Source of the DNA: Nocardioides marmoribigeumensis
GTDB lineage: Bacteria > Actinomycetota > Actinomycetes > Propionibacteriales > Nocardioidaceae
Reading direction: 5' to 3'
DNA length: 64,000 bases
Assembly: GCF_031458325.1 (NCBI RefSeq)
Contig: NZ_JAVDYG010000001.1
Coordinates: 1,302,001 to 1,366,000 of the forward strand
Shown piece by piece: positions 14,176-26,902 of this stretch. Numbering within the stretch: the first letter of the stretch is position 1; every line of letters starts with the position of its first letter. Under the pieces are notes generated by a model. The model did not search any database and was not told the DNA's origin. It saw nothing but the letters and a program-made list of their open reading frames with translations. Made by a program: the position numbers and the translations under genes.

Positions 14176-14287
14176 CCGTCCATGATAAATCACACACCGA
14201 AGGTCCTAGGACCCTAGGCTTGGTTGCGGAGAGCTGTGCCCTCCGACTCAGGGGGCCTCTCACAGGGGATGAAAAACAGGCTCGCGC

Positions 14288-14315
14288 CGTAACCGAGAGG
14301 CGCTCGGATCGTTGA
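14288..14315 (+). promoter_or_regulatory. BldN-type promoter CGTAAC-N16-CGTTGA
   Basis: CGTAAC (14288-14293) and CGTTGA (14310-14315) are separated by 16 bases. This equals the -35/-10 consensus I know for Streptomyces sigma-BldN promoters. Transcription would start near 14322, giving a leader of about 60 bases before the ATG. A gene for a BldN-like sigma factor is at 24805. Confidence 0.7.
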
Positions 14316-14383
14316 GAGGCTGTTCGAGGGAGAGAGACACCGGCTGCGGCAACCGCACCCGGCGACAAGGGAGTTAGGCACAC

Positions 14384-15661
14384 ATGAACCACCGCATGAC
14401 CAGATGGCAGAAGGCGACTGCCCTTGTCCCCCTGGCCCTGCTGTCCGGCGCATGGACCGCGAGCCTCGCGGTGTCCAGCGCGACCGCCGACGACGGCGAG
14501 GCCTCGGCCAAGCTGCCCGATGGCAGCACCGTCCCGAGCAAGGCGATCGAGGACCCCGCCAGCGTGTCGGCCCCCGGCCAGATCGCGCCGGGCATCCCCA
14601 CCGGCGGCGCCGACAAGGTCCTGTCCAGCGCCTCAGCGAACGGCATTCCCGCGGCCGCGCTCGCGGCCTACCAGCGCGCCGCGCAGGTGATCGACAGCGC
14701 CGACCCGTCCTGCCACATCGAGTGGCCCCTCATCGGCGCCATCGGCCGGGTGGAGTCCAACCACGGCACCTACGGCGGCAACACGCTCAGCGACCAGGGC
14801 GTGTCCACCCCCGGCATCATCGGCATCGCGCTCAACGGCTCCAACGGCACGCAGCGCGTCGCGGACACCGACGCCGGCGAGTTCGACCGGGACAAGACCT
14901 TCGACCGCGCGGTCGGCCCGATGCAGTTCATCCCCTCGACCTGGCGGGTCGTCGGCGTGGACGGCGACGGCGACGGCAAGCGCAACCCGCAGGACATCGA
15001 CGACGCCGCCCTGGCGACCGCGGTCTACCTCTGCTCCGGCGACGAGAACCTCGGCAAGCGGGCCGGGCAGGAGTCGGCGGTCTACCGCTACAACCACAGC
15101 CAGGACTACGTGAACCTCGTCCTGTCCATCGCCGACGCCTACGCCTCCGGCGACTACAGCGCCACCCCCAACGGCTCCACGTCGAGCACCACCTTCACCC
15201 CGTCCTACGGCGACTCGGTCTTCGGCGGCGCCAGGAGCGGCACCCGCGGCTACAAGGGCGCGCGTGCGCCCAAGGCGCAGCAGGCCCAGACCCAGCAGCC
15301 GACGACCGGCACCGGCTCGGGCTCCACCACCACCGGAGGCGGCACCACCACCACCAGCGGCGGCGGCAGCAACCCCGTCACCGGTGGCGGCGGCACCAGC
15401 AGCACCACCAGCGACCCGGGCAAGGTCGTGCAGGACACCACCAAGTCGGTGACCGGCACGGTCACCAACACCGTGACCCCGCTGCAGAAGGCCACCGAGT
15501 GGTGCCAGTCCAACTACAGCGCGGCCAAGCTCGACGCGATGGGCGGCGTCACCAAGTGCGCCAACGCCTACCTCGACGGCGGGGCCGCAGCGGTCAACAA
15601 CCTGCTCACGAGCCTCACCGACACCGTCGGTGGCGCGACCGGCGGCCTCCTCGGCAACTGA
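14384..15661 (+). CDS. Secreted lytic transglycosylase
   Basis: A 425-residue secreted peptidoglycan lytic transglycosylase of the MltB-like SLT type. A Sec signal peptide (hydrophobic core [14 protein letters not shown]) precedes the catalytic domain at about 85-245. The catalytic glutamate is in [16 protein letters not shown] and the substrate groove motif is [12 protein letters not shown] low-complexity Thr/Ser/Gly linker (about 300-345) leads to a C-terminal segment with two cysteines ([12 protein letters not shown] and [11 protein letters not shown]). The ATG has GGGAG about ten bases upstream. It is monocistronic and ends in a strong terminator. The upstream BldN-type promoter suggests control by the sigma factor at 24805. 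Confidence 0.9.
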
Positions 15662-24804: not shown

Positions 24805-25611
24805 ATGGAGAAGCGTCGCTACGACCTCGCTGAGGGCATGGACGCGCTGCGCCGTGCCGTCGCCGAGGTGCTGCGCGCCGACCTCGCCGGCCTGGCCCCC
24901 CGTCTCGCCCCCGCAGGCGCGCCCCCGCTCGCCGCGCTCCCGGCCTCGCGCCGCTCGCCGTGGCTGCTGGCCGAGGCCGCCGCCCTGCACGAGGTCGCCC
25001 CCGACCCCGCCGGCGGGCCCGGCGACAGCCAGCACGCCGTGTCCTCGGTCGAGGACGAGGCCGAGGCCAGCCGGCTGATCGCCCTGGTCGAACTGGCCCG
25101 CGGAGGCGACACCGAGGCGTTCGGGCTGCTCTACGACCACTACCACCCGCAGGTCTACCGCTTCCTCTACTACCGCGTGGGCTCGCAGGCGCTGGCCGAG
25201 GACCTGACCTCCGACACCTTCTTCCGCGCGCTGCGGAGCATGAGCTCGTTCCGGTGGCAGGGCAAGGACTTCGGCGCGTGGCTGATGACGATCGCCCGCA
25301 ACCTGACCACCGACCACTACAAGTCGGGCCGCAACCGCCTCGAGATGACCACCGAGGACATGAGCCCGCACGACTCGGTGACCGACGGCCCGGAGACCGC
25401 GGTGCTGGCGTCGCTGACCAACGAGGCCCTGATGGAGGCGCTGCGGCAGCTGCCCAGCGAGCAGCAGGAGTGCCTGGTGATGCGGTTCCTCCAGGGCATG
25501 TCGATCGCCGAGACGGCCCAGGTGATGGGTCGCTCCGACGGCGCGATCAAGCAGCTGCAGCTCCGCGCGGTGCGCAACCTGGCCAAGCTGATGCCGGAGG
25601 GCCTGCGATGA
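24805..25611 (+). CDS. BldN-type ECF RNA polymerase sigma factor
   Basis: A 268-residue sigma factor with an unusual N-terminal extension of about 90 residues (EKRRYDLAEGMDALRRAVAE onward), as in Streptomyces BldN. Region 2 covers about 95-175 (FGLLYDHYHPQVYRFLYYRV, then DLTSDTFFRALRS) and region 4 about 215-265 (LPSEQQECLVMRFLQGMSIA, then MGRSDGAIKQLQLRAVRNL). The ATG follows AGGGGAG. The gene after it is an RsbN-like anti-sigma factor, which supports the BldN assignment. A perfect BldN-type promoter lies upstream of the transglycosylase at 14384. Nocardioides-like bacteria do not sporulate like Streptomyces, so the role here is open. Confidence 0.88.
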   Translation: MEKRRYDLAEGMDALRRAVAEVLRADLAGLAPRLAPAGAPPLAALPASRRSPWLLAEAAALHEVAPDPAGGPGDSQHAVSSVEDEAEASRLIALVELARGGDTEAFGLLYDHYHPQVYRFLYYRVGSQALAEDLTSDTFFRALRSMSSFRWQGKDFGAWLMTIARNLTTDHYKSGRNRLEMTTEDMSPHDSVTDGPETAVLASLTNEALMEALRQLPSEQQECLVMRFLQGMSIAETAQVMGRSDGAIKQLQLRAVRNLAKLMPEGLR

Positions 25612-25690: not shown

Positions 25691-25719
25691 CGTAACCCCG
25701 GGGCCCACCGGCTCGTTGC
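25691..25719 (+). promoter_or_regulatory. BldN-like promoter CGTAAC-N17-CGTTGC before the anti-sigma gene
   Basis: CGTAAC (25691-25696) and CGTTGC (25714-25719), 17 bases apart, match the BldN-type consensus in 11 of 12 positions with one extra spacer base. Transcription would start about 34 bases before the ATG of the anti-sigma gene, giving negative feedback. Confidence 0.6.
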
Positions 25720-25759: not shown

Positions 25760-26902
25760 ATGACCTCCCTGATCGGCGCCCGCAGGCGCGCTGAGGAGTT
25801 CGACGCGGCCCTTCGTTCCCCCGCGACCGACACCGCCGCCGAGCTGCAGCCCCTGCTCTCGGTCGTCGCGGCCCTGCGGTCGCACGAGGCCCCCGCCCCC
25901 CGGGCCGACTTCGCAGCGAGCCTGCGCGAGCAGCTCATGGCCGAGGCGGCCGAGGTCCTCGCGCCGTCCACGCCCCTGGCACTGCCCCCGCGCCGCCGCG
26001 GAGCCCGCGAGCGCCGCCTCACGATCGCCGCCTCGGCCTTCGTCCTCATCGGCGGCACGGCCGGCATGGCCGCCGCCGCCCAGAGCTCCGCCCCCGGCGA
26101 CGCCCTCTACCCGCTCAAGCGCGGCCTGGAGAACGTCGACCGCACCCTCCAGCGCGACGACGCCGCCAAGGGACACGCGTTCCTGTCCCAGGCCGACGCC
26201 CGCCTGGACGAGGCCGCCGTCCTCGCGGGCCGCGACGCCACCACGCAGGAGATCGGCACCAGCCTGCGCTCGTTCAGCACCCAGGCGACGGCCGGCTCCG
26301 ACCTGCTGCTCGGCTCGTTCCAGGAGAAGCAGGACCCCGCGCTCGTCCGCGACGTCCGCAGTTTCACCGCCGACTCCCTCGACGCCCTCGCCGCCCTCGG
26401 CGCCGTCGCGCCGGCCGACCTGTCCGACGAGATCGCCCAGGTCGGGTTCGTCCTCCAGGGCATCGACGCGGCCGCGGCCCAGGCGTGCGGCAGCTGCTCC
26501 GACCTCCCGGCGCTCCAGGTCCCCGAGGACATGCAACTGACCGCCGAGGTCCAGCGCGCCACCAAGCAGGTGCAGATCCGCAAGCCCGACAACAGCCACC
26601 CGGCCCCGGCCGTGCGGCTGCCGCTCTCGGAGCCCTCGACCGGCACCTCGACCGACGGGTCCGGCGGTGCGACCGGCGGCGACCAGACCACGGCCGGGGG
26701 CGGCCTGCCCACCTCCCCGCTGGACAGCCAGAAGGAGGACGTCGGGACCGCGCTGCCCAAGGACCCGCAGGACCTCCTCGGCGCCGTCGACGACGCCACC
26801 GGCGGCCTCGTGGGCTCGGTCGGCGACAAGGTCGGCGAGACCACCGACAAGCTCCTCCCCAAGACCGACCCCAGCACGTCCCCCGACGACCTGTTGAAGT
26901 GA
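25760..26902 (+). CDS. RsbN-like membrane anti-sigma factor (DUF5667)
   Basis: A 380-residue protein with a cytoplasmic N-terminal domain (about 1-85), one membrane span (about 87-107, LTIAASAFVLIGGTAGMAAA) and an extracytoplasmic DUF5667 region (about 110-230, SSAPGDALYPLKRGLENVDR). The tail is low-complexity and includes CGSCSDLP. The architecture and place after a BldN-like sigma gene match Streptomyces RsbN, which holds BldN at the membrane. It lies 148 bases downstream, with its own BldN-like promoter in the gap. The ATG is preceded by AGGA. The signal that would release the sigma factor is unknown. Confidence 0.83.
   Translation: MTSLIGARRRAEEFDAALRSPATDTAAELQPLLSVVAALRSHEAPAPRADFAASLREQLMAEAAEVLAPSTPLALPPRRRGARERRLTIAASAFVLIGGTAGMAAAAQSSAPGDALYPLKRGLENVDRTLQRDDAAKGHAFLSQADARLDEAAVLAGRDATTQEIGTSLRSFSTQATAGSDLLLGSFQEKQDPALVRDVRSFTADSLDALAALGAVAPADLSDEIAQVGFVLQGIDAAAAQACGSCSDLPALQVPEDMQLTAEVQRATKQVQIRKPDNSHPAPAVRLPLSEPSTGTSTDGSGGATGGDQTTAGGGLPTSPLDSQKEDVGTALPKDPQDLLGAVDDATGGLVGSVGDKVGETTDKLLPKTDPSTSPDDLLK

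Follow-up and report, generated by a model that had tools for sequence, protein, structure and literature searches.

A BldN-type promoter in front of a predicted lytic transglycosylase gene in Nocardioides marmoribigeumensis and its relatives

The analyzed window is the whole stretch of 64,000 bases covering bases 1302001-1366000 of the Nocardioides marmoribigeumensis genome, which consists of one contig of 4,440,796 bases. The following features were assigned, with positions counted from the first base of the window:

14288-14315, plus strand: BldN-type promoter, with the -35 element CGTAAC at 14288-14293, a spacer of 16 bases (N16), and the -10 element CGTTGA at 14310-14315 (motif match; conserved upstream of orthologues)
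14384-15661, plus strand: gene for a predicted secreted MltB/SltB-like lytic transglycosylase (SLT) of 425 aa with the candidate catalytic residue Glu124 (Pfam, alignment, and fold)
24805-25611, plus strand: gene for a BldN-type ECF sigma factor of 268 aa with an N-terminal extension of ~90 residues (solved relative and Streptomyces comparison)
25691-25719, plus strand: BldN-type promoter preceding the DUF5667 gene, with the sequence CGTAAC-N17-CGTTGC and one mismatch (motif match)
25760-26902, plus strand: DUF5667 gene at the position of rsbN, the anti-sigma gene (Pfam PF18915)

The -10 element ends 68 bases before the ATG of the SLT gene (14384), and the site is the sole exact match in the window when spacers of 14-18 bases are scanned. 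The consensus of BldN promoters is given as CGTAACN16CGTTGA in the available part of PMC2375139; both hexamers, a spacing of about 16 bases, and a promoter-like distance to the gene were found here. The first-pass annotation had described the same hexamers and spacing 68 bases upstream of the ATG, had named them as the BldN consensus, and had put chance occurrence at about 0.01 per window; the first two points agree with the sequence and the cited consensus, and 100 shuffles reproduced the expectation of 0.01 exact motifs in the window. A riboswitch or another known RNA at the motif was rejected, since the region had no Rfam match. The SLT upstream region is a divergent intergenic region of 342 bases with inverted repeats. 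The palindrome GGTCCTAGGACC at 14203-14218, 5' of the promoter, is a possible operator, as is a perfect 8-base inverted repeat, GCCTCTCA/TGAGAGGC (14255-14262 and 14313-14320), one arm of which lies 5' of the -35 element while the other overlaps the -10 element.

The lytic transglycosylase proposed earlier downstream of the motif stands as a prediction: residues 176-219 of the product matched Pfam SLT_2 (6.1e-11), and its N-terminus carries a hydrophobic export-like segment. Glu124-Ser125 and MQFIPSTW (180-187) are invariant in all 16 aligned SLT sequences. The model built from this 16-sequence alignment had a mean pLDDT of 67, with 10-residue means of 71-95 over residues 41-260. Its top four fold matches were SltB2, Slt35, SltB1, and SltB3 (E 4e-4 to 7e-3), with low TM-scores of 0.23-0.27 over the full chain, and a profile search retrieved SltB2, SltB3, and Slt35/Slt36 chains. 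An SLT domain, a conserved Glu at the candidate catalytic position, and a matching fold (at pLDDT 67 and low full-chain TM-scores) thus place the product with the MltB/SltB (GH103) enzymes, and it is predicted to be an MltB/SltB-like lytic transglycosylase cutting peptidoglycan. It differs from them in that just the short profile part at 176-219 is matched, in a long Thr/Gly/Ser linker and a C-terminal helical part, and in scoring far under the cut-off of the NCBIfam MltB models. The nearest named carriers of the gene are Nocardioides, Marmoricola, and an uncultured Nocardioidaceae bacterium, all of the Nocardioidaceae.

The BldN-like sigma gene that had been noted 10 kb away was confirmed at about 10.5 kb from the SLT motif. 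The closest solved relative of its product is 6dxo_A (1.6e-54), followed by the next ECF chain at 1.6e-14; we take 6dxo to be the S. venezuelae BldN-RsbN complex, the database entry naming an ECF sigma factor only. On that identification, the window sigma factor has BldN as its nearest sequence relative among ECF sigma factors. It shares 49-51% identity with the counterparts from three Streptomyces, it alone in the genome reaches 1e-30 to BldN, and the extension of ~90 residues precedes region 2; S. coelicolor BldN is reportedly made as a proprotein. Judged by these characteristics, the window sigma factor is a BldN orthologue. The adjacent rsbN-position gene, a putative anti-sigma gene, has its own BldN promoter with one mismatch, and in a Streptomyces (L186) bldN is likewise followed by a DUF5667 gene. 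No solved relative of the window DUF5667 protein was found at E up to 1. In relatives, the exact motif was located 23-77 bases past the bldN match in 14 of 48 BldN-bearing genomes, 13 of these with N17. According to the available part of PMC4255298, rsbN of S. venezuelae carries its own BldN-dependent promoter.

Genome-wide, the exact motif (N14-18) occurred in 4 copies, all N16, versus 0 in the reversed control, and sites with up to one mismatch at N16 numbered 25 versus 2; therefore, the motif is not a product of chance. Nineteen of the 25 sites lie 2-170 bases 5' of a protein-coding start (starts chosen by codon-position GC content), and two (L003 and L022) precede RNA-like segments. The remaining four (L007, L008, L016, and L017) are intragenic, so single sites can be chance occurrences. 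The first-pass annotation had suggested such a scan and had regarded random placement of the motif as evidence against the promoter; this outcome was not seen. An N-terminal export or anchor segment was called by a crude hydrophobicity rule in 13 of the 19 products; among window genes that the GC rule had likewise selected, the figure was 10 of 36 (p 0.005). The products include SLT, two BNR-repeat proteins, a beta-helix protein, a trypsin-like protease, a subtilase protease, a tannase-like DUF6351 protein, a periplasmic-binding lipoprotein, a YkuD L,D-transpeptidase, an MlaE permease (L014, a one-mismatch site), Polysacc_synt_2 and Bac_transf proteins, a thioredoxin-like protein, a DnaJ-domain protein, and several proteins with no Pfam match; cytoplasmic-looking products are also among them. 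None of the four exact sites of the genome precedes a response regulator gene.

A BldN match (E up to 1e-30) was present in 48 of 58 related genomes of the Nocardioidaceae and sister families. The exact motif (N16-17) was found in 40 of these 48 genomes, with 95 matches versus 8 in the reversed control, and in one of the ten genomes without BldN, with 1 match versus 4 in the control (Fisher p 1.9e-5, uncorrected for relatedness); of the ten BldN-less genomes, five come from one other family and the rest from four genera of the Nocardioidaceae. Within the family, it was present in 24 of 32 genomes with BldN and in none of five without (p 0.003, relatedness ignored). Eight BldN-bearing genomes had no exact motif, nor did four further BldN-less genomes (N. 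insulae, Mumia quercus, Nesterenkonia, and Janibacter). Across the relatives, motif occurrence follows BldN presence. The ORFs behind the exact motifs clustered into 12 rsbN-position genes (14 including two recognized by eye) and 8 genes for ABC ATPases in Mla/Mce-like operons, two of which were checked and matched Pfam ABC_tran.

In the named SLT orthologue set (51 loci), the motif was sought no farther than 300 bases from the aligned start, with a spacer of N16 or N17 and up to one mismatch. It was found at 39 loci (15 exact and 24 with one mismatch), versus 0 of 51 with the hexamers reversed and 2 of 1020 dinucleotide shuffles. The spacer was N17 in 24 sites and N16 in 15, the last -10 base was A in 20, G in 13, and T in 6, the base preceding the -10 element was T in 36 of 39, and the spacer sequence was unconserved. 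Among the 12 loci with no motif at one mismatch, two come from BldN-less genomes (N. insulae and Mumia quercus), six carry two-mismatch sites (e.g., TCGTTAG), and four have none or worse. The SLT orthologues of other relatives (30 loci, overlapping the 51 by at least two genomes, L056/G004 and L075/G015) gave 11 sites with up to one mismatch and 23 with up to two, with 0 in the control. By comparison, 36 other SLT loci, made up of paralogues, some tandem copies, and 7 loci from BldN-less genomes, had no site with up to one mismatch and 2 with two mismatches, the reversed control giving 1 at one mismatch. Six more Nocardioidaceae SLT loci, outside both the 51 and the 36 (L106, L108, L109, L110, L113, and L129), had no motif at one mismatch. 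The motif is retained upstream of SLT orthologues and not of paralogues. The distance between SLT and bldN is 7.4-13.7 kb in 20 Nocardioidaceae genomes and 27 and 91 kb in two; in others, the genes are located on separate contigs.

In other families, the motif was sought within 450 bases of the aligned start at 23 SLT loci; four were preceded by an exact motif (L116, L121, L122, and L134) and three by a one-mismatch motif (L107, L117, and L135), and all seven genomes have a BldN match. The 16 motif-less loci include at least 10 in BldN genomes and 2 in BldN-less genomes. Four genomes (G058-G061) were chosen because the SLT site is present, so they are descriptive rather than a test, and a joint chance figure for them was set aside for this reason: in G060 and G061, about 8 Mb of sequence contain no exact motif besides the SLT site, and the two largest Pseudonocardiaceae-like genomes, G058 and G059, showed no excess of exact motifs over the reversed control (4 versus 5 and 3 versus 2). 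The genome of L121, recorded as Rhodococcus rhodnii, measures 12.4 Mb, encodes a BldN match, and has an SLT site resembling that of Kibdelosporangium; its title may be wrong.

Three Streptomyces genomes contained 8 exact motifs (2 in the control), which precede two BldM-like response regulators (in two genomes, by eye) and one rsbN-position gene. No SLT-like ORF was found behind the 8 motifs, and no SLT gene in 27.9 kb around bldN of one Streptomyces, a stretch cut off by the contig end at 8.5 kb on one side. Chaplins (PF03777) were detected in none of the 58 relatives, in a run whose built-in controls were silent too; as a positive control, the PF03777 search was positive in all three Streptomyces and negative in a Saccharopolyspora, a Nocardioides, and a Kribbella genome. 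Chaplin and rodlin control is a regulon feature of Streptomyces rather than of the BldN protein family. The earlier suggestion that a cell-wall hydrolase target, in an actinobacterium presumed to be non-aerial, would be a different use of the BldN system gains support from this distribution. The system resembles sigma-BldN/RsbN of Streptomyces (AdsA in S. griseus) in its orthologous sigma factor and promoter consensus, as described in the available parts of PMC2375139 and PMC4255298, and in its DUF5667 neighbor with a BldN-type promoter. It differs from the Streptomyces BldN regulon in that no chaplin was detected in the 58 relatives and in that the sites precede genes for a lytic transglycosylase, Mla/Mce-type transport, and exported proteins, and a small RNA; the sequences thus suggest that a familiar sigma/anti-sigma pair and its promoter type serve a different regulon. 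In its available sections, a 2013 review (PMC4255298) restricts convincing BldN orthologues with synteny to morphologically complex genera and describes Nocardioides as mycelial and sporulating. No BldN regulon appears in the available part of the RIViT-seq paper. Neither a lytic transglycosylase nor a small RNA under BldN control was reported in the open papers searched, among them PMC4255298, PMC7985256, PMC4282423, PMC4125116, and PMC9205884, a set that does not include the original BldN target papers.

Taken together, the BldN-type sigma factor very probably transcribes the SLT gene directly from the promoter at 14288-14315. The strongest alternative, rather unlikely though compatible with BldN driving SLT, is that another promoter in the divergent region of 342 bases accounts for most SLT transcription, with the BldN promoter adding conditionally; BldN-less genomes retain SLT genes close in sequence (L104, L105, and L270), and the intergenic inverted repeats could be operators, but no sigma-70-like site reached the threshold in the SLT upstream region, in a scan that is weak for GC-rich actinobacteria. 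It is improbable that the promoter, though real, is mainly used by an ECF sigma factor other than BldN that has a similar -35 element, e.g., one of the SigD type. The promoters of mycobacterial and corynebacterial SigD are of the GTAAC type, and ECF sigma factors generally share -10 and -35 features; however, the BldN-less genomes gave 10-50 candidate sigma regions in a first screen, yet only one exact motif was found in the ten, no second protein of the genome passes the BldN threshold, and the motif also fronts the rsbN-position and BldM-like genes, as for known BldN. A coincidental match, of which the intragenic one-mismatch sites are a reminder, or a piece of structured leader RNA has a negligible probability and is refuted in the main by the co-occurrence of motif and BldN and by conservation before SLT orthologues with an unconserved spacer, as well as by the empty reversed control and Rfam search.

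One class of exact motifs precedes two hairpins with C-rich, CUCCCUCCC-like loops, which together were treated as a small RNA; it adjoins a gene reading as guaA in the copies examined. The copy of the source genome is as follows:

3652829-3652952 of the genome (within positions 1371-1500 of locus L022), minus strand: small RNA with the promoter CGTAAC-N16-CGTTGC

Compensatory changes occurred in 15 of 21 pairs in an alignment of 11 small RNA sequences. A promoter-free RNA model matched 19 of the 58 genomes (L286-L304), all of them Nocardioidaceae with BldN (19 of 32), and none of the five BldN-less Nocardioidaceae. Eleven of the 19 matches had served to build the model. All eight others have a BldN-type promoter starting 27-48 bases 5' of the RNA (none in the reversed control); one of these promoters has two mismatches and the other seven no more than one. 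One of the eight (G010) had already been met as an exact motif. The small RNA had no Rfam match at the gathering score; the nearest scores, alphaproteobacterial ar14 and CcsR1, fall below it and offer an analogy only. In its two stem-loops with C-rich loops, it resembles the 6C RNA of actinobacteria, from which it differs in its CUCCCUCCC loops and BldN-type promoter. Identity with 6C RNA was rejected, as the tested copies had no RF01066 match, and a 6C RNA (RF01066, 60.2 bits) without a BldN motif is located elsewhere in the same genome. As described in the available part of PMC8388888, 6C RNA has two stem-loops with C-rich loops, and that of S. coelicolor rises in sporulation. The small RNA may pair with ribosome-binding sites. 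At the other RNA-like segment, L003 1501-1790 (about 2325833-2326122 of the genome, plus strand), an exact BldN-type promoter lacks a downstream ORF and lies between a sortase-like gene and a convergent DedA-like gene (names by eye), and C-rich hairpins with a terminator-like hairpin may form a second small RNA.

In the proposed mechanism, release of BldN from its anti-sigma factor would act as the switch. RNA polymerase with the window sigma factor would then recognize 14288-14315 and start transcription ~7 bases past the -10 element, leaving a leader of ~60 bases; SLT would be made, secreted, and presumably cut peptidoglycan, and the BldN-driven anti-sigma gene would provide feedback. BldN would thereby be a switch for wall and surface remodelling, a role suggested because most protein genes behind the sites of the genome look exported or membrane-bound. 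Its control of wall and surface remodelling is likely because a BldN promoter fronts SLT and is kept in most relatives examined. The distribution of SLT suggests a core and perhaps ancestral target of BldN, and the same kind of evidence points to BldN as an envelope-remodelling switch in these relatives. More tentatively, and at somewhat less than an even chance, the original actinobacterial job of BldN may have been that of a cell envelope switch rather than of a hydrophobic coat; its regulon would have comprised a wall hydrolase, the anti-sigma factor of BldN itself, genes for lipid transport and exported proteins, and the small RNA with C-rich loops, with chaplins, rodlins, and bldM as a later addition on the Streptomyces side. 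Regulation of aerial growth is the established role of BldN; since BldN is present in 48 of 58 relatives with a regulon readable from sequence and no detected chaplin, its function without a chaplin coat becomes directly testable.

Two further groups of exact sites were observed in the relatives. In a fourth family of the order, seven loci (L148, L150, L153, L190, L191, L193, and L196) carry an exact BldN-type promoter with no clear long ORF behind it, 10-13 kb from bldN, at about the place that SLT holds in Nocardioidaceae. In four loci of one family with Kribbella-size genomes (L156, L157, L159, and L201), the exact motif is followed by a conserved ORF-less stretch of ~300 bases that closes with a strong hairpin and may represent another, different RNA.
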